Below are positions 19,598 to 60,624 of a DNA stretch of 64,000 nt, piece by piece. Numbering within the stretch: the stretch's first letter is position 1; every line of letters begins with the position of its first letter. The translations under genes and the position numbers were made by a program. The DNA comes from Aotearoamyces nothofagi (lineage: Eukaryota; Ascomycota; Leotiomycetes; Leotiales; Tympanidaceae): NCBI GenBank assembly GCA_015345905.1, contig JADDTR010000002.1, positions 1-64,000 of the forward strand. The letters are read 5' to 3'. The notes under the pieces were generated by a model, which worked only from the letters and a program-made list of their open reading frames with translations, was not told where the DNA came from and did no database searches.

Positions 19598-21305
19598 CCC
19601 AACCCCAACCCAACAACATCCACAGCGTCCAAAGCACCACCCCATCCCACTCCACCCAGACCCAGAGTAAACAAATCTTCCAACCGACACAAAAAGATAC
19701 CGAGCCGGGAGCCAGAGAGGGAAAGGAGCAAGGAGCAAGGTGGGGAGGGGGGCAGACCTCGACGAGGTCCCGATGGGGGAACTCTGAGGCGTCGATCTGC
19801 CTCTCGGGTCGAGCTGAGTCGGAGAAGGAGGCAGGCAGGTAGACGTGCGTGCGAATTGGATTGGATTGGATTGGATCAGTTGGGGAGGTCGTGGGTAGGA
19901 CCTGCAGGCGGCTGTGGATGCTTGCGTGGTTGAGGTAGGTGCTTTGCTGTGTTGTATTCTGCTGTATGAGGCCTGCTGTTGTATATGCCCTCCTGCTGTA
20001 TAAGCATACTGTAGTACGAGCCCTGCTGTAGTATATACCCTGCTGTAGTATAAGCCCTACTATACCATATCCTCCCACACTATACCCTCCCATACTATAC
20101 CCCCCCCCAATACAAGCCCTCCCATACCACTCACCCAACAACACTCGCCCTCCCGAACGCCTCACCATCAACAACAACCTCACCGATCCACCGCCGCGTA
20201 CCCATCCAGCCAGCTGCGTACATCTCGCACCCCAAGTCCCATCAATCATCAGTCAGCAACTACCTCGCCCCCCCAATCTATCCACCTCCCTAATCCACCT
20301 CCCTCCACCTCCCCTCCCCTCCCGCCGGGACCCAGCCAGCCCCACACGACCGCACCGGAGCTGTTCTGATTGGCGCGATTCTTTTGTTCCTGGGGAGGGG
20401 AGGTTTGGGGGAAGGGGGGTAGGGGGTTCTCTCTCTCTCTTCCCAAAACGACCTGGGACAGACGGCCGGGTAGGTCGATGCTGTGTTTGTCGCCCCATGT
20501 GCGCTGTGTGCGTGGAACCCCTGGTGCCACGAGGGGCGGCGGTGGTGGGAGGGTGAGGGGAGGGCAGGGCTGGACTGTATTGAGTTTTACTGTATTGGAT
20601 CTTACTGTATTGGATTTTGCTGTACTCTACTCCGCTTTACTGTACTTTACTGTACTTTACTTTCCTGCCCTGTCCTGTCCTCTCCCCTCCCCTCCTCTCC
20701 CCTCCTCTCCTCTATCCAATACCGCACCACACCGCACCAAAACCCCATCCCAAGTAATCGCCAACGAGGCACGCGAGGGGCACGAGGCACGCGGGCGAAG
20801 AGCCCTGCAGCTTCCTTTGCTCCGTCCGTCTGCTGTGCTTCTATGAGTTCTATGAATTCTATAAGTTCTATAAATTCTATAGCCTCTAGAATCTTCTAGT
20901 ACCTTGTATTATATACTATCCAGCAATGTAATTTACAAGCAAGCTGATAGATTGTACAAATTGGGTACAGGAAGTGTTCGTCGCTTCTGAACAGCAACCC
21001 TCCAACTTTGAAATGGAATAACTCAACAATACTATTATATAATTGAATGAAATAAGATATAGATGATTGATTGACTGTTTAAGTTTAATATTTAATAGAC
21101 CTGCCTTTTGCCTTAATGTATAGAGCAATTCTTTTATATATACTCTAAGATAACTTTTCCAATACTTCCTCTTTAATCTTTGACTATTTATCTCTTAATG
21201 CCTTCTCTATTTGAGCAATATTCCTGATTCTATATCTTTGTTCTACTACTGAATTCTTAGCCTGCTTCTAAAGATTCTCAAGCCAAATCTAGAGACTAAA
21301 TAGTA

Positions 21306-21839
21306 GACTGTCCAACAGTCCAGTCTGGTCCGGTCTCGAGAGTAATTTGTAGACCGTTTCAAAGACCGGACTGTTTAGGTCTGGACCAGACTGGACTATA
21401 AATAAACGGTCCGGTCTCAAATAGAAAATAGAGACCGTTTCTAGAAACAGTCTGGTCTAGACTGAACCGGACTATATAGTCCGGTCCAGACTGTAAAGAG
21501 CTATTCTTAGAACTCTTATAACTATTTTTAGAAAAAAGATTTTATAACTTTCTTTGTCTATATAGAACAGTAACACTCAATAGTAATGCCCTTAGTATTA
21601 GGATTGTAAAAAAAGTAGTAATTAGAGTATTTAGAAAAGAAACAGTCTGAGATCTCTGAGACCGGACCGGACCGTTTCTAAATAGTTCAGTCCAGTCTAG
21701 ACCATTTATTTATAGTCTGGTCTCAAGGACTATAATGTAGACTGTTTAAAAATCAAGGTGCTCAAAGACTGGACTGGACTGCTTTTTACAGTTCGGTCCA
21801 GTCCAGACCGTTTATTTACAGTCTGGTCCGGCCAGTCTA
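21306..21839 (+). repeat. Left inverted arm, lightly mutated
   Basis: This arm keeps many CCGG and CAG sites (for example GGTCCGGTCT and CCGGACCGGACCG) that appear as TAG or CTA in the right arm, so it has suffered fewer C-to-T changes. Confidence 0.8.
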
Positions 21840-21849
21840 CTAAATAGAC

Positions 21850-22910
21850 TATTTAAGAAGATAAACCTTTTACAACCTCTTATATTCAATTGGGATTTTT
21901 ACAAAGTGATACTTTGCTATATCTTCTTATAAGTAGATAGATAACTTTAGCTGTTTAAACTTTCTTTATATCTTCTTATAGAAGGGAATAAAAAATAGTT
22001 TAAATACCTCTTCAGTATAGTAAGTTTAGTTTATTCTAGTCTCTTTTTCTCAAATTACTAATAGATCTAATTCTACTTCTATAAAACAACTCTAGACTAA
22101 TACTGAAGTTCTACTACTCTTGAAAGTCGACTTTAAGTTCTTCTTAAGATATTCCTCTTCTAGTACTCTTATAATATAATAATTATATCTATTATATCTA
22201 ATCTCAAATATAGATTTATCTAACTAATAAATTTTTATCTAGTCAAGTAATAAATTACTAGAAACAGCTTTATACTACTTCAGTTACTACAACTTATATC
22301 TTAGTTTAAGAAATAGCTTATATCTTAGTATAATAGTTGTATATAATAGAGGAATCTAAGTAGCAAGGTCTTTGATACTTAAGAAAGAAAGAGTATTCTA
22401 AGAGACTTTATCTCTTAAATACTCAGCTTAGTAAACTATTAAACTGGTTATATAATCTACTACTAGTAGATTATATAATCTAGAGGTTATATATATAATA
22501 AAATCAACTTATTATACTTAGTTTATATTATACTTTTCTATTATACTTTAACACTTTTCTTATAGTATTCTAATAGAGCTGATTTCTAGATTTATTTAAT
22601 ATTGCTAAATTAGCTAATATAGCTAATAGAGTATAAGTTTCATTCTAAGCTACTTTTATTAATTGATATTTATCTTTAGAAGTGACTTTCTTAAAAGTAC
22701 TATATCTTAGAATATTAAAAAACTCTATTTTATTAGTCTTTTGCTATATATATTAGATAATAAAGCTGATTGTTGATCTAGGAATATAAACCAAGTCTTA
22801 AATCTTCTTTGACCTCTTTCTATCTTTATAGTAAGCTTAAATTTATACTTTTACTATTAGTATAGTTTTATAAGAAGTAGTCTTTAGTTTAGAAGATATT
22901 TAATAGTATA
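21850..22910 (-). pseudogene. Broken Tc1/mariner-type transposase
   Basis: Minus-strand frames show the order of motifs of a fungal Tc1 transposase. A helix-turn-helix-like YIPRSTISFII is near 22790, and a second DNA-binding part, VTSKDKYQLIKVA followed by KSRNQLYQNT-like sequence, is near 22560-22690. The first catalytic aspartate region WIKIYWLDKSIFEI, with the typical ESF replaced by KSIFEI, is near 22240. FKSSRTSVLVWSCF (usual form GRTSIMVWGCF) is near 22110, and YLQEDIAKYHFVKIP (usual form MEDGAPVHTAKIP) is near 21900. Several in-frame TAA/TAG codons, the expected product of RIP, interrupt it. The SPDLNPIE-type C-terminus with the last acidic residue is absent: the frame runs straight into the left arm. 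The gene cannot be active. Confidence 0.65.
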
Positions 22911-22920
22911 TATAAGAATT

Positions 22921-23453
22921 AGACTAGCTGGACTAGACTGTAAATAAATGGTCTGGACTAGACTGAACTGTAAAAAGTGGTCTAGTCTAGTCTTTGAGTA
23001 CCTTGATTTTTAAACAGTCTATATTATAGTCCTTGAGACTAGACTATAAATAAATAGTCTAGACTGGACTGAACTATTTAGAAATAGTCTAGTCCAGTTC
23101 TAGAGATCTCAGACTATTTCTTTTCTAAATACTCTAATTACTACTTTTTTTACAATTCTAATACTAAGAGTATTACTATTGAATATTACTGTTCTATATA
23201 GACAAGGAAAGTTATAAAATCTTTTTTCTAAAAATAGTTATAAGAGTTCTAAGAACAGCTCTTTATAGTCTAGACCAAACTATATAGTCTAGTTCAGTCT
23301 AGACCAAACCGTTTCTAGAAATGGTCTCTATTTTCTATTTGAGACTAGACTGTTTATTTACAGTCTAGTCTAGTCTAGATCTAAATAGTCCAGTCTTTGA
23401 AATAGTCTATAAATTACTCTTGAGACTAGACTGAACTGGACTATTAGACAGTC
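22921..23453 (-). repeat. Right inverted arm, heavily mutated
   Basis: Reverse complement of the left arm, with most CCGG and CAG sites changed to CTAG and TAG. Internal landmarks (TTTTTACAATTCTAATACTAAGAG, read in two halves, and CTATATAGACAAGG) hold the alignment to the left arm throughout. Confidence 0.8.
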
Positions 23454-23543
23454 TATAATATAGTAATATATTTTCATTTAGATATATAGTTATATACTAT
23501 ATAGTAGACTGCTATTTCTTATTACTTATATTATAATTCTAGC

Positions 23544-23950
23544 AACAATTACTTCTAGTATCTAATTTATATCTACTAATTTGTAATTTGGTTAATTCTA
23601 TAGTAAGTTGGTCAATTCTTATTATATTTCAGATAATATAGCAATTGGCAAATTATATAACTAGAATTAGATTAGACTATAAATTATAAAAAAGGCTATA
23701 AGGTCTTCTGACTCTAGATTCAATAATAGACTTAGAGTCAACTTCTTTAGAAGACTCAATTTCTCTATAATCTCTTTTCTATTCTACTTTTTATAGACTT
23801 GTTACTATTTCTTAGCTCTGAGTTAATTATACTATCTTTAATATTATAATCTTAATAGCTTTACTATTAGAATTCCAAAACAATTACTTTGATAGATTAT
23901 ATCTACCAATTTACAATTTAGTCAAGTTTATAGCAAGTTGATTAATTCTA
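23544..23950 (+). repeat. Direct repeat pair of about 75 bp in the AT-rich island
   Basis: Copy one is about 23544-23619 and copy two about 23877-23950. They share AACAATTACTT, then ATATCTAC(T/C)AATTT, then TAG(T/C)AAGTTG, with transitions at most differences. They are spaced about 330 bp apart. The parent element is not recognised. Confidence 0.55.
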
Positions 23951-24054
23951 GTATATTATTAGATAATTTATCTAATTAGACAATTTCCAAGATTATAAAA
24001 CTTAAAATTTAGAAATATAAGTTTTCTTAAGTCTCTACACTTTTTATAGGTTTT

Positions 24055-24117
24055 TTTATAAAGTCTCTATAAAGCCTTTATAAAGCCTCTATAAAGTCTT
24101 TATAAAGTCTCTATAAA
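24055..24117 (+). repeat. Short tandem array TATAAAGTCTC
   Basis: Five to six units of an 11-12 bp repeat (TATAAAGTCTC / TATAAAGCCTT), differing by C/T. Confidence 0.75.
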
Positions 24118-24758
24118 ATATCTTATAGATAAGTTTAAAGTAGTTACTACTTACTAGATATTTTTTAAAGTATATATAAAGTGTTTTATAAATCTAACTC
24201 AACTTCTAAAGTATTAACAATTATAGATATTATTTTACTATCTTTATTACTATATAGTACTTACTTTATACTATTATTATCTATCTCTAATAATGAAGAA
24301 TATAAATATAAGCCTTCTACTTTAGATAGAGAATTTATAGACTATATTAAACAAAGTAGTAATAGAGATATTCTAGCTAGAAGAAAGTATAAAGTTTATA
24401 GATATTATTTAAATAATAGAAATCTACTAGTTTATAATATATTATATAAAGAGAAAGCTAAAGATACTAATTTTAAAATTTAAGCTTTATACTATTTTAA
24501 ACTCTAAGACAATTAAGTTTATAGACAAGTTGAAAAATCTAGAACTAGAACTCTATTTAATATAATATATACTATATATAATTATAGTATAATTAAGTTT
24601 ATTTATAAAGTTTACTAAAGCTTAAAGTATTATAGTTTATAATGTTCTTTCTATTTAAATATTTATTCTTATATTGATCTTTATAGAAATTAATAAAACT
24701 TATAAAAGAATTATTTAAACAGATATTAAATAGATTGTTAAAAAGTGTTTATATTATT

Positions 24759-24867
24759 AACTATAAGCTGTAAATCAGATACTATCTACTTTAATTTCTA
24801 TTATTAGTAATAGATATAAACTATAAATTGAATACTATTTACTTCAATTTCTATTATCAACAATAGA
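24759..24867 (+). repeat. Tandem duplication of about 55 bp
   Basis: ACTATAAGCTGTAAATCAGA...TAATAGATA is followed at once by ACTATAAATTGAATACTA...CAATAGATA. The copies share the middle TTTCTATTAT and differ by transitions and a small gap. Confidence 0.6.
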
Positions 24868-25767
24868 TACTTAGATAGAATCTTTAGATCTTATAGATTT
24901 TTATACAAAGAGAGATAAAGACTTCTATTATATTCTATAGATTAAAGGTTATTTCTCTTATTATATTACTTTATTTATATTTAAAAACAAGAATTTAAAA
25001 GAAGTATTATTGATATTAAAAGATTAATTTAGTTAAAATAAATAATATATTTTACAAGCAAACTATCTAAAAATCTTATAAATATAACTCTTAGACTATA
25101 AGTCAAAATACTACTATCAATTAAATCAATAGTCTCTTTTCAAAAGAGCAGAACATTTTTTACTATCTAAATAATTGAATAAAGCCAGAGTTAGAGTATT
25201 TAAAATATAGCTAGTTATATAATATTCTATAGAAAATACTATATAACTAACTCTATAGAATATCTTTATAATATAATAGTTTATCTAATTTAAAAAGAGC
25301 TAATTCTATATAAAGAGACAGCTATTATCTAATATATTCTTAACTTAGAGATCTATATAGATTTCTACTCCAGCTTCAAACTATTAAAGAAAAAAATAGC
25401 TAATCTTCTATTTATCAAGTATAATATATTACCAGTTGACTAAAACTAGATTTTTAGCTTTATTAAATATTGTATAGAGTTTTAAACTAAGTTTAGCTGA
25501 AAGGATAATTCTAAAATAGTTTAATATAAAAGATCTAGAGATTATAGAAGAGTAGTTAGATACTACTATTAAAAGTCTAAATCTATCTAAAAGATATTAA
25601 AACTACTATATAATCTAATAGTTTAGAGAGCTAAAACAATAGTACTATATCTTATATAATAATTTTAGATATAATATTTATATATATACAAGGTATTAAA
25701 AGTCTATTGATAATTTAAAGTAGTTATTATTTCCAGAGTTAAAAAAATATATTTCTTAGAGAGTTAT

Positions 25768-26543
25768 ATTTTTTTTAACAGTCTATTTATATAAACAGCT
25801 TGTTTATAAAATATATTATCTAAGAAAGCTATAAGTTATATTCTATAGTCTCTATTTAAAGAATAATACTAATTGAAGCTAGATATTATAAATAATAGTA
25901 TAGAGTTCCAAAGAAAAAAAGTACCTAAACTTTTAGATTTCTATCTATCTAAAGATCCAAATAATCAACAGAGATATATATATTTTATCATTCTCCAGTT
26001 CAAGAGTCTAATTAAAATTGCCAATTATATATTCAAAATATTGATTAACCAGTAGCTATTCAAGCCGGATACCAATATTCCAACCAGATTTCTTTATTAC
26101 CAGAACTAGCAATTGTTATCAATACTATTAAATCTAGAGAATTCATCTTAAGATAAAACTCTTTTTAAAGTTTGGTTTGGATGAAAAACCTTATTAGATA
26201 TATATATATAAGACTAGTAAGAGTCTTACTTTCAATTCTAATATTTAAAGTAGATATTTAATCAACTAGTAAAAGATAAAGACTTTCCACTATTGGAAAT
26301 TGAATCAAGAGTTGTTAGAAATAATAGAAGAGTTGCTTTATAAATAGTTAGAACTCTAGAACTCTAGAGCTTTAATTGTTTAGATAGAATAGTTCTTACT
26401 ACTATTCTATTCTACTCTCTTGAAAAAAAGAAAAAAACTATCAATTCAATTAATAATAGTATTCTAGTTTACAATCCAAGGGTACTATTTCTATAATTTT
26501 TAAACAGTTTACTTATATAGACAGCTTGCTTCTAGAATATATT
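25768..26543 (+). repeat. Two dispersed copies of a ~50 bp repeat
   Basis: Copies at 25768-25819 and 26491-26543 share TTTTTAACAGTCTA, then TTATATAAACAGCTTG, then AATATATTAT, with C/T and G/A differences. The same orientation and 723 bp spacing suggest ends of one lost element or two fragments of a family. Confidence 0.5.
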
Positions 26544-27386
26544 ATACTATACTATACAACAAAGTACCAAGTACTCAAGAACAGTATTTTCAAAGATATA
26601 ACTATAAATTATTCTTATCGCTGTTACTCTTACTACTGACTGTTGTTGCTGTATGTCTAACATTGTATCTTCTACTCTCCTCCTCTTCTCCCCTTCCTCC
26701 CCTTCCACCTTATCCAACTACAACTACCCTCACCGCACTTCCCTCCCCCCAACCATGCCCCCTCCCTCCCGACATCCTACAAAGCCACGGCCCTCGCCTA
26801 CAGCAGCAAGACGCACCCATCCACCAGCCAGTCATGCCGGGAAATATCGAAAATACCGAAATACCGAGCAGAGAAAAAAGAAAGAAGAAAACCCCAATCC
26901 ACATACGGTACAGTACAGGCCCTCGCGTATATTTTGATTTCCACACACGACGCCGAACCACGCAAGCCGCAGCCGCAGTCCCCAGCCTTGCAAGCCAGCC
27001 AGCGGCATGTCGAGTATTCCGATACGTGCAAGACGGCACGCGAGCGCCACCTGGCTGCCAGGGCCGTTTTGCTCGCTTACATCACAGCACGCACGGGAAG
27101 TACAGGACATTACTACAAGCATGTAAGACAGTCGACCCGGCCTGCGTCCTGGCTTCCCGGGTCCCGACGAGATGACGGCGTGGTGGACGGCGGTGAAGCT
27201 GATGTTTCGGGTCACGTGATGGGTGCGTGCGTGCCGTGTGTTCCTCTGCGGGAGGGAGGACTGGGCAAGGGTTGGGTGGTGGCTGGCAGCGTCGAGACCG
27301 CTTGTTGGAGGACGGACAGCCCGTAGTAAAGGTTGGCGCCAGAGTTACTCTAGCTAACGTTACCTTGTTTCGTCCATCGAGCGGGT

Positions 27387-42950: not shown

Positions 42951-45900
42951 TTACGAAGCGCGTACCTGCTGAAGATATTGCTCCAACTTTTTCTTCAGAG
43001 TGTGAACTCGTACTGGCTTTGCAAGGTAGTCATTCATGCCAGACTCCAAACACTTCTCTCTGTCACCTTGAATGGCAGAGGCAGTCATCGCAATGACAAG
43101 AACACCTCTTACTGCTTCGATCGGATCTCTACGCAGAAGCTTAGTTGCTTCGTAGCCATCAAGAACCGGCATCTGCACATCCATGAGTACTAGATGGCAT
43201 GGTGTTCCTTCCTGGGCCATTTTACGGAGGCCCTCGACCGCTGCTAATCCATTATGAAAGGCACTAACGTGTACGAAACCTAGCTTCTGGACAAACTGAA
43301 TAGCGATCTTCTGGTTAATGGGATTGTCCTCCGCAATACAGATACGAAGTTCTTCCTTCGGAACATCAGAGAAGTCGGTGTATGGTATCTGTGGTCGCGG
43401 TCCTCGATCCTCAACAAACTTGGCCATGAGATCGCGTTGCTCAGACCCGTTCTGGCTGTCTCCAGCCGATGCTTCTGGTTTGGCCTTTGGGAATGTAACG
43501 GTGAACCAGGCAGTTGTCCCGGTGCCTTCTTCGCTGTCAAGCTCAATTCTACCTCCCATCATAGATTCGATGAGTGATTTACAGATACTAAGTCCAAGGC
43601 CACTACCTCCGTACTTCCGTGCAGTGCTAGCATCCGCCTGGCTAAAGGGCTTGAATAGCTTTGCAAGCTGGGACGGTGATATTCCGATTCCAGTGTCTTT
43701 GACCCAGAATGTAAGCTGAACTTGATCGTTAGTTTCTCCGTCTACTTTTGCACCAATTGTGATTGAGCCTTTCTCTGTGAATTTAAGACTGTTTCCGATC
43801 AGATTGCCAATGACCTGGTGTAATCGAACAGGATCGCCATAGACAAGTATTTGTGGTAAATCGATGTCTTGCAGAATCTCAACATCCCTACTACTTCGTT
43901 TGTCTCTATTGCTATATGAAACAGACCGGACGACTTCGCGGAGCATTTCATCGGCATTGAAGGCAACTATGAAGAGTTTCATCTTGTCTGCTTCCATTCT
44001 AGAGAAGTCGAGAATGTCGTTAATTACTGTCAACAACAAGTCAGCAGAAACACGAATGGAATCGGCCATTTCTGCCTGCTCCTTGCGTAATTCGCTATCT
44101 CTCAGTAACTCTGAGTTCCCTATAACACCATTGAGAGGGGTTCGAAGCTCGTGCGACACGTTTGCTAAGAATATGGACTTCGCTTTGGCTGCCTCTTCCG
44201 CCAGCTTGACATTCCTAATTGCCTCTGCTTCAGCGAGTCTGGATTTTGCTTCCGCGTCCTTAGCTTTTGCGAGGGCACGCTTTTGGGATTCTACCATCGA
44301 TACATTTGATGCCGAGACCTTTTCAATTGCCTTTAAGGTCAAAGCGTTAGAGTATGATATACCAATCTGGTTAACCAGAAGCTGTAGCACAGTCAGGTTT
44401 CGGTCTGTAAAGGCATTTGGCTGTCCTTCTAGATACAGAACACCCAGAAGTGGTTTAATGCCATGAGCAATAGGTATTGCAATGACAGACTTTCCGAGTG
44501 GGTTCTTTAGCCACCAGTCGTCGGCAACATTGCTGAATCGTTCATCGCGAATGAGGTCTGGCAGGAATACTGTCTCCCGAAACCGTGTACAATAATGGAT
44601 AACACTGGCCGCCACCACTGACGTTTCGCCGAGTGGCAGGCCAGGGATATGAGCTTGTGCACCATTTTCTGGGTCGCCACTTGCAGCAATGCTCCAGCCT
44701 GGAGGATCGTCCTCTTCTACAACAATCGCGGCTAGAGAAGCAAGACCGCCACAATTTAGTAAAATGATCTCGCACATGGTCTTGAGAAGTTGGTCCACTT
44801 TCAATACAGAAGATATCACTTGTGAGCTTTCCAGAATCGAGGTCAAGTCCAGCATGTCTAGCGCGGGTAGTCCTGCTCCCACCTCAGGTCTTGCGGAGCC
44901 ACCTTGCCAGGCGCCAATTCTATCACCTTTTGTCTCTGTTATGGACGCTCGAGTCTGGTGGCGCTCATCATTTTCATCGCCCTCAAGAGTTTGATACTGT
45001 ACAGGGGCCGAGTCTCCAGCAAAATCTGTTTGTACTGCAACATCGGCAGTTCTAAGACTCTTCGTTGGACCCTGAAGGAGAAGGCTATGCTCACTCTCAA
45101 TGTGTCGGGCTATGCCGACAGCACCAAATTGTCTGTACAACATTATTGTTTCTCGGAGAGAGGATTTCGCTGGTCTTCGTGCGCCACGCCTGAGAAAGTA
45201 ACCAGCTAGGAGATAGTTACCGAGAGCTTCTTCAAATAGGAATCCATTTGCAGCCGCGTGGTCCAATGAATCTTCGTACTGTTGAAGCGTTAATGGTCCT
45301 CCTTGCAATTCAGATATTTGGGCATCGAGTAACTTGGACCAAGCTAAATAATTGACATCGTTTACCACCTCCCAATCAACTATTTTCCTTCTTAGGATCG
45401 CCAGTTGCTTCAACGTCTCCTCAACAAAAAGCTGTTGTTCTCGCTCGTCGGTAAAATGAGGATCTTGGGCTCTTCTCCAGACGAGTCCGGCGAGAGATAG
45501 GCCATAAAATAGGACTGCAAACCGGGTATTTCTCGCAGACCAAACCGATTCCATCTTCTCAAAGCACTCCTTTCCTGTTTCAACGGCTTTCTGGTAGTGG
45601 CCATATAGAAACAAAGGGGCGATCTCGAGGCTTTGGTAGAAGAGCACTGGTCGGTCACTCACAGAATTGATAGTGGATTTTATCCACGCCAGATAAAGTG
45701 TTGTGTTATGACTTTCGTCGCTCATCACCTCTCCAGCCGATTCTATCATTGTCTTCCCTTGCAGGGCACGACAGAGTTGGCGCATAGCAATAATCATGGT
45801 ACCACCACGACAGTCATACTGCCAGTTGGGCACCTCCTCGCAACCAAACGAACAGAACGACTCCAAATCTGTAAGGTGTTCTGATCCGAAGAATTTAAGG

Positions 45901-48900
45901 AGAGCCACAATTCCAAAGTTCAGGATTGTCGAGATCCTATCACCAGCCTGGATAGTGTATTCGAGGGCTCCTTCTAATTGGCCAATGGATACAGATATAG
46001 AGGATTGAATATGTCCAACAAACATGGAGTAAACCGTTCCTCCTCTTCCTAGAGTATAGGGATCTTTCCACATATCCATAAGTTCCAGAGAGATATTCCC
46101 AACGTCACTGGCAAACCGGATCATACCAAACCTGGAAATAGCAATGGCCGCAAGATACATGAATGCCATTGGACATTGTGGAAAGCCACCATGTTTTATA
46201 AATGTATCGGTCATGACGAGCGTCATTTGAAAGAAAGTCAACCGATCATACCAGAAAGCAGAGCTCACAATTTCAACCAAGATTGCACCGACTGCTGAAA
46301 GATTGGAATCTTGGGCCATTTTTTGCGTTATCAGATCCTCGCGATCCATGCTTTGGATTTTAAGAGAAAGACGCTCAAACTCTTTGTCACACTTATCGAA
46401 CGTGGGATTGGAATCTACCTCAATACCGAGCGCAGAAAGACAACTTATGAGAGCATTAAATGCAGCTTGAGCATCACCTCTCTGCGCATAGACTCGCGAT
46501 TGTAAGACCCAGGCTGGAGCTTTATCCACGGCAGTTTTCGCATTTTTAAATACAGTGGAAAGCAGGCGAAGGGTGTCATCGTAAGAGCCCATATAGTGGT
46601 AGCATTCTGCAGCTCTGATATAAAGAGCTAATGTTTCGTCATAATAGACATCTTCTAGACCCTCGGTCCAAGGGTCGTCTTGGAGTAATGCAAAACAATT
46701 CGTATAGAACTTGGCAGCTGTTGGTCTTGCTCCGTTCTCTGAAGCTGCTTGGGCGCAATCAAAAAGGAGCTTCCTGAACGATTGTCGATGTTTAACGCGC
46801 TTGTTGATGATTTCAATAGATGCGCAAATGTGAGATGCTGTAGTCTCACGCATTCTATCATCTGATGAATAGTACTTGCTCAAAGTTTGAGCTATGACGT
46901 AATTCATCTTCTGTGTATCCATCTCTTCTAAAGAGGAGGCAGCTTGAATATAGCGATCGTGCGCAAACCTGAACTTGTCGTCATCTTCCGTGGAAACTAT
47001 GATGTAAGCTTGGATTGCGGCTTGGAGTCCAGAAATAGCATCTTGCGTCGAATTGGAAAGAGTATATATGTCCTTTTTCGGCGAGTTAACATCGTCATTA
47101 TCATAGTCGAACTCTCCGCTCAGTAGTCTTTGAATCAATTCGAAAGAAAATGTTGTGCCAATCAATGAGGCCCAGGCTAGGATAAAGCGAGCTGCAGGGG
47201 GCAATTCTGCAAGGCGACGAGTCACAAAGGTGCTGTTCAGCATGTCATGATGCTCGCCAGTTGCAAATTGTGTGAATATCCTGTCCAAATCGTATTGCCA
47301 GCATGATGTTCGATAATCATAATATATCGCGGCTTTCCGATAACATGCATTAAGCATTTCTTTCATATAGAACGGGTTTCCTCCAGACTTCGACTGTATG
47401 ACGGCAGCGAGTGGAATAATGTCTTCTTTCGGGCGACAAAGGGTGGCGGCAACATATTGCGTTATTTCATCCTCTGATAGAGGTTTCAGTGTCAATCGGG
47501 TTACGCCAACGCCGGAATTCTTCAAATAGCCTATAAGTATATGAGTGAATGTTTCGCTGGCCACAGATTAAGGGGCCCCACTTATACCTTCTGAATCAGG
47601 AGGTTCTATGATAGACTTGATCCTTTCAGGTAATATCTCATCGGGTCTATAAGTCAAAATAATGACCATTTTCATCCGGGATGAGATGAGCTGAGATATT
47701 AGTTCCATCGACTCATCATCAGCAAATTGGAGGTCGTCCAAGCAAAAGCACAAAAATTTGTGTTGTGCAAAAACACGTAGCACGTCCAGAAATGTGTTCA
47801 TCAAGCGTACAGATTTTGTTGACGAGCCTGCTCTGAGAAAATCTTGCGAGCTCTGCGAACCAAGAGTCATACTGTAGAGACTTCCTGTACGAGTGCTTGA
47901 AGTATCTCGCATTCCCAAGTCGGCACGAGCATTTTTGCTATACCCTCCAGACAGATTGCTAGAGAGCCGTTTCGAATATCCGTTGTCGCCTAGTAAGAAT
48001 TCTGGAAGTCCGAGGACTTTGTGGAGCAATGGCCACGCCGGTCTAACATACTGCTTGAGGACTTGATGGAATGGAGTATCTGTTTCACTCTCTGAGAAGA
48101 CCTGCTTGAATAGGCTAGACAGGAGTGTGAGTACTGGTCCAAAAGGGGTCCGTTTTGCCTGGTCAAACTTCGATGAAGCAAAGTAACCCCTCCGCCGAGC
48201 CTCAACCTGCACACTTTGCACAAGACAGCTTTTTCCCAGACCCGCTTGTCCAGCAATGCTAACAACTTCGCAGCGACCCTTTCTTTTGAACTTCGAGCTA
48301 TTCTTGTGGCTCGTAAGACTACCAGCCCCGTCTGAACTGCTTTTAATTGAATCCACATTCATTGAATTCACCGAATTTACATCCGCGAAACCTTTTGCCT
48401 CGAATGATATAGAGCTGTTCCTCTCCCATGGCTTTACATCAGAATTTGAGTGAACCGACTCTTGGCTATCTAAGGAGTTGTGCTGAGAGCCAGCTATTGA
48501 CTGCGAGCCAATATGGGCGCCAGCCAGATGTGAGATCCATTGGCTCGAGCTGTGTCTTCCCTCAAAAGAGCTAGTTTGTTCGCTAGACACCTCATCAGCA
48601 TCTAGAGCATCCATAAATTCATGGCGACTATCGGATACGCTAGAACCGGAAGAGAGAGAATAAGGGCTCTGCTTTTGCGAGATTATATGGTGTTTCGAGA
48701 CCTTGTCAATGACCTTCACTATCTCATCACGTTCCTCGGTTCGGCCAATCATAACTGTTGGAAGTATGAAAAAAGAGGAGACATCCTTTGTAGCTATTTC
48801 GAAATTCTTCAATGCCACTGAGTCGCCTTGCCCTAGGAGCTTTTGAACATCCAACAAGTCGAATCTTAGTCCACTTGCCGAGTGATAACGTTCTCCTATC

Positions 48901-50067
48901 ACCTTTGCGGTCATCTTAGAGATTATTCGGCCGACAGCCTCAGGAACGTCAAGTCGAACTGAAGACACAGAAGGAAGCCGCCGACCAAGAACGCTCTGAA
49001 TAATATCCATTGGACTGGGGCCATCAAATGCAGGCTGTTGTGTCAGCAATGTCCAGAATAAGATTCCAAGTGAGTAAATGTCGGTCCGGCTGTCTGGTTC
49101 CGCAGGCATACGCCCCGTTTGTTCTGGGCTGATGTAGGAAAGCTTGGTTTTGGCGCCGGCTTCCTTGGACAAAGTCGACCATCCTGAGCTTGTAAGGCCA
49201 TGCTCAAAAGATCGAAGTCCAGAGCCAAAATTGATAAGCCGCGCTTGTCCAGTTTCTTCATCAAAGTGAAATGCGTCGGCTCTAATTTCTCCGTGGACAA
49301 TTCGTTGTCCATGATGCAGAATTTCTAAACACTCCGTAGCTCCGATAGCGAAGTCCAGGAACATAGGCAGTGATATATGCTCAGTTGGTGTATATGCCTT
49401 ATCTAATAGTATATTGTGATTTCCAGTCTTGCGACCTGTATACCATGCGGGGCCAAAGTCAATATATTTGATTAAGGCATTGGGGCCGGGAGCTTCGAAA
49501 ATTGAAACGACCACCGGTCCCTTGTCACCTTGCTGGCTCGCCAGCCTCACAAGGTCCACCGGACGCACAATGTGAATCCCTTGAGGGTCAACATTCTTCG
49601 AAAGATCCCTGCAAATATGGAATGCCCGTTCTTCCCGTAAGGCATGTCTTGATATCTTTGCGATAACATGTATTTGTTCTTGCTTTCCTTCGTGGTCATC
49701 GTCGTTGGACGATGATGAAGCTTCGCTGTCGTAGCCGCTGTTTGCAGAGTCCTTGGGAAGGCCGGTAAGAGCTTGGAGACCCAGTCCCGGAGAGCTTCCA
49801 GCAGAGCTAGATTTCGTGTGCAGTGGGAGTGCGCCGTAGACTGTCGAGGTTGCCGTGTTCTTGGTGCCGAAGACATGCCTATATCACGTTAGTTATTGCG
49901 CTGTGTTGGTCCGGTCTCGTGCATGTTGTATACCAGTTATCATAGCTGGAGTGAAAGGGTTTCTTCGACTCGTCCCAGGTATATCCAGCAATTTGCTGCA
50001 GGCGCTCAAACAGTCGAGGGGGCGGGTCCATGTGCTCGTCCCCGACAACAACAGTCCCGTCCATCAT
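42951..50067 (-). CDS. Group X hybrid histidine kinase (kinase-like, AAA, GAF, HisKA, HATPase, receiver)
   Basis: Exons are 50067-49934, 49878-47588 and 47530-42951; the joined frame of 7005 nt codes for 2334 residues. Both introns (55 and 57 bp) restore known motifs: SYDNW|HVFGTKN and DSEG|YLKNSG. About 100-390 is a Ser/Thr-kinase-like domain in which the catalytic loop reads HGEIRADAF and the DFG site INFGS, so it is a pseudokinase. An AAA/NACHT-like ATPase follows, with Walker A GQAGLGKS (588-595) and Walker B FLCFCLDDLQFAD. Next come helical TPR-like repeats, a GAF domain (about 1700-1860), HisKA with SHELRTPLNG (phospho-acceptor H1935), HATPase with DTGIGIS and GSGLGLSI, and a receiver with LVLMDVQMP (D2259) and MTASAI, DYLAKP. 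This order is that of fungal group X kinases such as Candida Chk1 and fission yeast Mak2/Mak3, linked to oxidative-stress and cell-cycle signalling through a phosphotransfer protein. The open frame continues 39 codons above the chosen ATG, so an upstream exon is possible. Confidence 0.9.
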
Positions 50068-58431: not shown

Positions 58432-60624
58432 ATGAGTAGCAGCAACGACCCTTCGGCTGCGTTATTGCTCGCACTTGATACCGATGCATACACTTATGGT
58501 GTGGAAATAGAATTTATTTTAGCTTTCGAAGAGTCTAAACTTACGCCCCTACTTACTATTACCGAGACGATAGTAAAGGATATACCATACAAGGTTCGTA
58601 GCCAAACCACTGTCAAACAAGGATTCCACAGAGGCAGGAGTCTCTACCCGGCTCGCGCCTACAGAAGCTGGGGTATTACTACCAGCGGTGGCCCTCCTGT
58701 ACCGTACGAACTTCAGCCATTAGAGATCGCACAAGATATAGTCAAGGATATTTTCACGCCTCCTGGCATTGATATATTTGAGGATTCAACGGAGAAAACG
58801 GTGGATCGATATGAGAAATGGTCCATTACCCATGATGTCAGCGTCCGTGGTGTTGGACCAGCTGGTATAGCTGAGCGTCTTAGTGACCGTGTCACTGATC
58901 GAGAAAAAAACAATTGGGATAGCTTTGGGCTAGAACTCGTGACTCGGGTCATGAATACCAGTACTCCTGCCGATATGGAAGAGATCGGGGCTGTGATTAA
59001 AGCGTTAGAAGGCAATGCGAAGTCGAAGCACGGTGTCTTCGTCAACAACCACACAGGTCTACACGTCCATGTGGGCACTCCTGACGGCTTGTCTCTGGAG
59101 GTAGTAAAGGAGCTAGCTTTTATAGTTATTATATACGAAGATGAGATAAATCGCCTACACCCACCTTGCCGACGACCTGGCCATCCCTGTGTCAAGACAG
59201 ATCTCAAATCGAACCTGCAGCATAGCTTCTTGGAAGAAAATCATATCCATAATAAGTACACCTTGGCAACTTCACCAACCCCACAATCAATCTGGGATAA
59301 AATAAACCGTATAGAGGACCTACCTACCCTTCTGGCTCTCTTGTGCAAGGAGGGTCGTGGCTACCTCGTTAATTTTACATACCTCGGCCGTGACGGCGCC
59401 GAAAGCCCTAAGACGATAGAGTTTCGACAGCACCGCGGGACCCTCAACTTAACAGAAATCAGGGAATGGGTCTTCTTCGTGGTGGGACTTATCCGTCTAG
59501 CGAAGCTCTACCAAAAGCGTGGCGGATGCAAGATCAAGTCGTGGTATGATAGAATCACTATATACGACCTGTTCCGCGATATGGGAATGTCGAAAGCACA
59601 GGAGAGGTTTTGGACGGCGAAGATTGCAATGTACGATATGTATCCGAGCGCTGGTCCGTTGAATCAGGTGGATGATGAGGTGCCGCCGGAAGAAGATCTG
59701 GAGGAGGAAGATATTGATAATGGCGATGGCGACGATGGCGACGATGGTGACGATGGTGATGATGGCGACGATGGCGACGATGGTGACGATGGTGATGATG
59801 GAGACAATGGTAATAACGGTAGCGATCCTCCACCTAGAGATGGTAAAAAGGGAAAGACCAAGGATCCTGCTTCTGTTCCACCAAGCGACGCCAAGTGTAT
59901 ACCAACAGAAAATGTGAAGAGAGGCGCCGATGCTATTAAGGGTGCAGATGATGAACCTGAAGACCCTACACCTAAAAGATCAGATACTGGGCGGAAGAGA
60001 ATACGAACTACCATCACTCCTCTAAACCGCATGACCCCAACACCTCCCATGAGTGAATGCTATCAAAATGGTAACATCATTGAGGCTGGGGTGATTTCAC
60101 TCGACGAACTGTACTGTATTGGAAATGAAAAAGGTGTTGTGCTCAATGTTTACGTCAACCGCTACAGCCTCCACGAATGGGAGCTCATAGAAACACCAAG
60201 TCTGGGACCTGCCGGGCGCAGGCAACAAGACATGTGCGGCATCTGGGCACTACTTCACTCCCTCCAAGCGCAATACCCAAACGACCCGGTCATCAACGGC
60301 CTACAGTTCAATGATGTTCTTCAACACGTCCGTCGACCAGCAGAGAATCCCAACGGCACCGCCATCGAAAGGAACAATTTCGAGGCTGACCAGCTCGGGC
60401 TAGGCCTCGAGTCAATGGCATACGCGTTAGGCTTCAGAGGCCGCCTTTATAAGCTGGTCATGTGTGCAAAAGTCGACAACGTAGACCGCGCCAGGAGGGC
60501 AGGCCTTGAAGCGGCCGGGATAGGAAAGAATGTCTATATTCACCACGAGCCGAATTTTAAAGGAAAGAACCTCCACCATTGGCAGGGAATGAAGCGGCGG
60601 GTTGTACCACACGGGGCTGTTTGA
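58432..60624 (+). CDS. Amidoligase fused to a C-terminal OTU/papain-like cysteine peptidase domain
   Basis: Intronless, 730 residues. Residues 20-400 form a putative amidoligase domain (Amidoligase_2, glutamine-synthetase-like COOH-NH2 ligase fold). It shows YGVEIEF (22-28), GLELVTRV (166-173), NNHTGLHVHVG (205-215, H211 and H213) and TIEFRQHRGTL (328-338), all the family's core strands with acidic and histidine metal/ATP ligands intact. Residues 412-460 are acidic and become a (Asp-Asp-Gly)n run; a basic stretch with PKR and GRKRIR (514-524) may be a nuclear signal. The C-terminal domain (about 560-720) has RRQQDMCGIWALLHSL with a nucleophile-like C602, and NLHHWQGM with H715/H716 near its end. 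The D-x-C-x3-AL and HHW forms resemble OTU-type cysteine peptidases. By family knowledge amidoligases form peptide-like bonds on proteins or small molecules; here ligation and cleavage could reside in one chain. An ATG at 58300 would add 44 residues but gives no conserved sequence, so 58432 is preferred. Confidence 0.8.
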   Translation: MSSSNDPSAALLLALDTDAYTYGVEIEFILAFEESKLTPLLTITETIVKDIPYKVRSQTTVKQGFHRGRSLYPARAYRSWGITTSGGPPVPYELQPLEIAQDIVKDIFTPPGIDIFEDSTEKTVDRYEKWSITHDVSVRGVGPAGIAERLSDRVTDREKNNWDSFGLELVTRVMNTSTPADMEEIGAVIKALEGNAKSKHGVFVNNHTGLHVHVGTPDGLSLEVVKELAFIVIIYEDEINRLHPPCRRPGHPCVKTDLKSNLQHSFLEENHIHNKYTLATSPTPQSIWDKINRIEDLPTLLALLCKEGRGYLVNFTYLGRDGAESPKTIEFRQHRGTLNLTEIREWVFFVVGLIRLAKLYQKRGGCKIKSWYDRITIYDLFRDMGMSKAQERFWTAKIAMYDMYPSAGPLNQVDDEVPPEEDLEEEDIDNGDGDDGDDGDDGDDGDDGDDGDDGDDGDNGNNGSDPPPRDGKKGKTKDPASVPPSDAKCIPTENVKRGADAIKGADDEPEDPTPKRSDTGRKRIRTTITPLNRMTPTPPMSECYQNGNIIEAGVISLDELYCIGNEKGVVLNVYVNRYSLHEWELIETPSLGPAGRRQQDMCGIWALLHSLQAQYPNDPVINGLQFNDVLQHVRRPAENPNGTAIERNNFEADQLGLGLESMAYALGFRGRLYKLVMCAKVDNVDRARRAGLEAAGIGKNVYIHHEPNFKGKNLHHWQGMKRRVVPHGAV
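59721..59810 (+). repeat. In-frame GATGGCGAC minisatellite coding an Asp-Gly linker
   Basis: Ten units of the 9 bp repeat GA(T/C)GATGG(C/T) encode the Asp-Asp-Gly run between the two domains of the amidoligase-peptidase. Since the unit is a multiple of three, length changes would keep the frame. Confidence 0.9.

Follow-up and report, generated by a model that had tools for sequence, protein, structure and literature searches.

The genome of the fungus Aotearoamyces nothofagi encodes an amidoligase that carries, in the same polypeptide, a C-terminal domain absent from its five paralogues. The gene lies in the first 64 000 nucleotides of contig JADDTR010000002.1 (GenBank assembly GCA_015345905.1), a stretch referred to below as the window; this is contig C2 of the 55 that make up the 25.5 Mb genome. 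The protein contains a glutamine-synthetase-fold amidoligase, a long linker and an orphan domain, which we read as a putative papain-like hydrolase. Taken as a whole, this explanation has in our view an even chance of being correct. The features of the gene are reported in table 1.

Table 1. Features of the amidoligase gene of A. nothofagi (positions in the window; residues numbered along the protein).
Feature	Position	Strand	Remarks
Single-frame gene	58432..60624	+	730 amino acids; intron not needed
Amidoligase_2 (PF12224) domain	58489..59484	+	residues 20–351; profile, invariant residues, glutamine-synthetase fold
9-base tandem repeat, 9.7 copies	59724..59810	+	encodes Gly-Asp-Asp repeats in the linker
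Basic cluster PKRSDTGRKRIR	59971..60006	+	residues 514–525; nuclear-signal-like by eye
Orphan C-terminal domain	60109..60621	+	residues about 560–730, boundary approximate; no significant match in searches
QQDMCGIWALLHSL, candidate nucleophile C602	60223..60264	+	residues 598–611; helix predicted at low confidence
HHW, candidate catalytic His	60574..60582	+	residues 715–717

A preliminary description of the window, made from its letters alone, had noted amidoligase motifs and a distinct C-terminal domain in one polypeptide. Translation of the gene gives 730 residues without a stop, and all of the quoted motifs are present in this uninterrupted frame: GVEIEF (23–28), GLELV (166–170), GLHVHVG (209–215) and TIEFRQHRGT (328–337), followed by QQDMC (598–602) and HHWQGM (715–720). 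This observation is confirmed. The first frame of the reverse complement contains many stops. Among 500 mononucleotide shuffles of the whole segment none stayed open for more than 193 codons, whereas the real frame has 730; when only the last 165 codons were shuffled, one of 500 sequences remained open. The frame is therefore non-random. The codon score, trained on the other frames of the window, is higher in this frame than in the five others for all three segments of the gene, with positive values for the amidoligase (0.135), the linker (0.318) and the C-terminal domain (0.099). A simple pattern search detected no intron-like stretch inside the gene. An artefact of assembly or annotation was rejected on the basis of the single open frame, the coding-like codons of each segment and the lack of any such stretch.

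The N-terminal half of the protein matches the Pfam profile PF12224 with 41.1 bits (cut-off 22); in a scan of the genome with this profile, the gene scores 40.1 bits, the lowest value among six amidoligase genes. All 17 invariant columns of a 32-row Amidoligase_2 alignment are conserved (G-E-E, W, D, E, G-H-H, R, N, T-E-F-R and G-T). The N-terminal domain of the predicted full-length model has the fold of the glutamine synthetase superfamily (the VIA list obtained from this model covers mainly residues 5–416). Profile, invariant residues and fold thus bear out the amidoligase half of the preliminary description, and its assignment is confirmed at the level of family and predicted fold. On the basis of family membership, ATP-dependent amide ligation is the likely activity: the domain would use ATP to activate a carboxylate, to which an amine is coupled, giving an amide bond on a small molecule or a peptide.

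The six amidoligase genes are distributed over contigs C41, C20, C4 and C2. The amidoligase domains of the five paralogues are 22.5–26.2 per cent identical to that of the window protein. Together with the fungal proteins P0002–P0004, the paralogues share with it the PF12224 domain and the invariant residues (22.5–28.1 per cent domain identity), whereas none of these eight proteins has its C-terminal domain. A search of the protein database with the full chain scored only the 7984 candidates that had most words in common with it and was probably dominated by the Gly-Asp repeat; it returned three matches at E ≤ 0.001, one of them named Xylaria. A tree was established from 37 amidoligase domains (the window protein, the five paralogues, three database matches and 28 viral sequences); the window domain is found on a very long branch (1.99) without a close partner, and its placement is unsure.

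The linker (residues about 402–596) has pLDDT (predicted local distance difference test) values below 50 at nearly all positions of the full-length model. It had been described as basic. A basic cluster is indeed present, but the linker also includes the acidic Gly-Asp repeat; it is long and probably disordered, with an acidic part followed by a basic part. This linker would join the ligase to the orphan domain.

The separate C-terminal domain is genuine as coding sequence. In the genome it was found once, and nowhere else within the reach of the search. Pfam yielded nothing for it at E ≤ 10, nor did PHROGs or NCBIfam at E ≤ 1; a sequence search of the PDB gave a single match, a helicase subunit with an E of 1.4, regarded as due to chance. 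Protein searches retrieved nothing at E ≤ 10, either with region 545–730 (1188 candidates with lengths of about 401–1277 amino acids) or with a 261-residue piece (334 candidates, about 143–457 amino acids). Because the tool requires shared five-residue words, a relative of the domain with about 30 per cent identity can escape these protein searches. No match was detected in viral contigs, phages or prokaryote contigs, the contigs being scanned for exact eight-residue patterns. Modelled alone, the domain has a mean pLDDT of 36, and within the full chain most values are below 50. A Foldseek comparison with the isolated model, meaningless at such a pLDDT, found nothing that reached E ≤ 0.001, and the matches listed (50 of 75) include no OTU protein. 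No fusion of this kind is named in the titles or abstract beginnings of the literature matches listed. The C-terminal domain is real and, within these searches, an orphan; relatives may exist beyond their reach.

We favour a reading of this domain as a divergent papain-like cysteine hydrolase, in which C602 and H716 would be catalytic and which would act on the substrate or the product of the ligase. As judged from the order of its motifs and from the precedent of FluG (see below), the chances that it is a peptidase are about equal either way. The succession of a Cys, an E--A-A motif, a strand-like stretch and a late His matches by eye, with similar spacing, that of L014, one of three OTU peptidase genes (L014–L016) found in the genome by the Pfam OTU model (PF02338). 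H715 and H716 are located 14–15 residues from the C-terminus, and a putative strand before them is modelled at low confidence only.

Several results weigh against this explanation. A peptidase finds no support in any of the profile, sequence or structure searches, and no homologue of the domain was found that could show conservation of C602 and H716. The spacing of the Asp before C602 is unlike that of L014 and L016. In the ligase itself, the near-invariant ELVSP reads ELVTR (Ser at 171 and Pro at 172 are each present in 30 of the 32 alignment rows), and the substrate of the enzyme may therefore differ from those of other members. Small OTU profiles were built from L014–L016 and yeast Otu2, with one sequence left out per run, and compared with 2000 shuffles of the C-terminal domain. 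The held-out proteins L016, L015 and L014 score 22.6, 17.6 and 59.7 bits, respectively, with none of the 2000 shuffles as good. The C-terminal domain scores −1.5 bits in the run without L016 (866 of 2000 shuffles as good) and −0.7 bits in the run without L015 (245 of 2000), gives no score in the run without L014, and reaches −1.6 bits with the four-sequence profile (873 of 2000). These profiles have low power for a very divergent member because they contain three or four sequences, of which L015 and L016 are partial. Since held-out OTU proteins score and the C-terminal domain does not, a canonical OTU peptidase is unlikely; the domain may nevertheless be a very divergent papain-like one, as a single sequence carries little signal.

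The strongest alternative is a C-terminal domain without enzymatic function. It would be a fast-evolving, lineage-specific module for substrate recognition, tethering or location, in which the Cys and His residues are coincidental. The searches gave no relatives, five paralogues manage without the domain and none of the catalytic profiles tried fits, as expected for such a module; however, the CG-W-AL stretch, the late His and the folded-looking composition exceed, by eye, what a featureless tail would offer. We consider this alternative a serious one, though less probable than a papain-like hydrolase.

The domain might instead be a true OTU-family peptidase, as the preliminary description proposed, so that one chain would attach and remove a tag. 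OTU peptidases have an early Cys and a His near the end, and the window protein has the same order near its C-terminus, with a middle motif and a spacing like those of L014 by eye. The proposal relied on short motifs; the domain has no Pfam match, the gene is not among the three that the OTU model detects in this genome, and the small profiles fit it no better than they fit shuffles. The nucleophile motif of OTU peptidases is D-G-x-C-like, with the Asp three residues before the Cys. This is the case in L014 (PDGHC) and L016 (DDNSC), while L015 reads QTGNC, with Thr at −3, in the unspliced genomic frame. The D-x-C sequence offered as an OTU pattern does not correspond to it: the window protein has Q599 at −3 and D600 at −2. 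The third-residue position also differs from L014, with Gln two residues after H716 in place of Asn. We regard this identity as unlikely. Two other peptidase groups were considered. A search for Josephin gave no match anywhere, and its controls were also silent, so the result is uninformative. There are three C48 peptidase genes in the genome; in C48 peptidases the His lies well before the Cys, and this family was judged by eye to be a poor fit.

A degenerate class-II glutamine amidotransferase that provides the ligase with ammonia is a very improbable identity for the domain: the corresponding profile gives −1.5 bits, a score matched by 239 of 2000 shuffles, whereas three proteins not included in the profile reach 389–415 bits. 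The idea is suggested by the sequence MCGIWAL, which we take to resemble the start of asparagine synthetase, and by viral amidoligase loci. Class-II glutamine amidotransferases are marked by an N-terminal Cys and by HRG and NGE motifs. Both motifs are absent from the C-terminal domain, and C602 is internal, with only 128 residues after it; this identity was rejected. Among 80 viral amidoligase loci (L017–L096), 14 have a class-II amidotransferase frame and 47 have a relative of one gamma-glutamyl cyclotransferase, counting any frame of at least 70 codons in the locus and presumably including the loci from which the queries were taken. No locus has both, and the remaining loci have neither by these queries. 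In L017 and L035 the amidotransferase partner begins with MCGI or has it close to its start.

In one of the 80 loci, viral contig L052 (5866–8028), Amidoligase_2 and GATase_6 are fused in one frame of 721 amino acids. This resembles the window protein in joining an amidoligase to a second domain; the C-terminal domain of the latter, however, has no match to the amidotransferase profile. No peptidase was found among nine neighbour proteins from five viral loci, a small sample. Five of these nine have Pfam matches at E ≤ 0.001 (two amidotransferases, an adenylosuccinate synthetase, a cupin-like isomerase and a cyclotransferase). According to an excerpt of PMC11318856, amidoligase and gamma-glutamyl cyclotransferase genes are near each other in Clostridium prophages.

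A second domain fused to an amidoligase gives a handle on the substrate of the ligase. Should the second domain of the window protein be a hydrolase, the two together would suggest a reversible fungal modification made by a relative of glutamine synthetase, outside the ubiquitin system. Any coupling of the two activities is inferred, and attachment and removal of one tag by the window protein is speculative. To our knowledge, there is no direct precedent for such a design in one chain. We hold it improbable that the protein is both writer and eraser of an undescribed amide-linked modification, with a new papain-like family and a flexible, possibly nuclear-targeting linker. The closest comparison among tagging systems is PafA/Dop, a glutamine-synthetase-related pair whose relation to amidoligases is stated in a passage of PMC3511204; Foldseek lists these proteins at E values of 0.12–3. 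Pupylation is erased by Dop, described in the same passage as a close structural homologue of the Pup ligase, and not by a cysteine peptidase, so that it offers no known precedent for a ligase with a peptidase as eraser.

Like the window protein, FluG of Aspergillus nidulans combines a fungal hydrolase and a glutamine-synthetase-like ligase in one chain via a linker (excerpt of PMC6478659). Its order is the opposite, with the amidohydrolase N-terminal and the gamma-glutamyl ligase C-terminal, and both regions proved essential when their key residues were altered one by one through point changes (same excerpt). The FluG hydrolase is a TIM-barrel-type amidohydrolase, and its ligase is type I glutamine-synthetase-like and is not treated here as a member of Amidoligase_2.

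The literature search found no substrate for a fungal amidoligase. The founding paper on amidoligases is that of Iyer et al. in 2009. The portions seen of PMC5934393, PMC12419801, PMC4431377 and PMC10318531 mention these enzymes solely when citing it, and a whole-word search of PMC7824862 had no match. The amidoligase domain is described as enriched in Sclerotinia and Botrytis (excerpt of PMC3158057), and one fungal amidoligase gene as missing from four of 12 asexual Epichloe strains (excerpt of PMC8982410).

Five of the six amidoligase genes of A. nothofagi are less than 60 kb from a contig end, and one contig that carries two of them is just 126 kb long. A telomere pattern was detected on C5 and C30 only, at the contig starts, and a reversed control pattern is equally frequent; a subtelomeric placement of these genes is a possibility only. 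The neighbours of the gene in the window include a Fungal_trans regulator and a hybrid histidine kinase. Two abutting frames on the reverse strand (42954–49568) carry protein kinase/AAA and GAF/HisKA/HATPase/receiver domains, and probably belong to a single large gene for a hybrid histidine kinase. An AT-rich island, about 6 kb in length (21000–27000), also lies in the window; its G + C fraction is 0.19–0.29 in 2-kb windows, against about 0.60–0.65 in the flanks.
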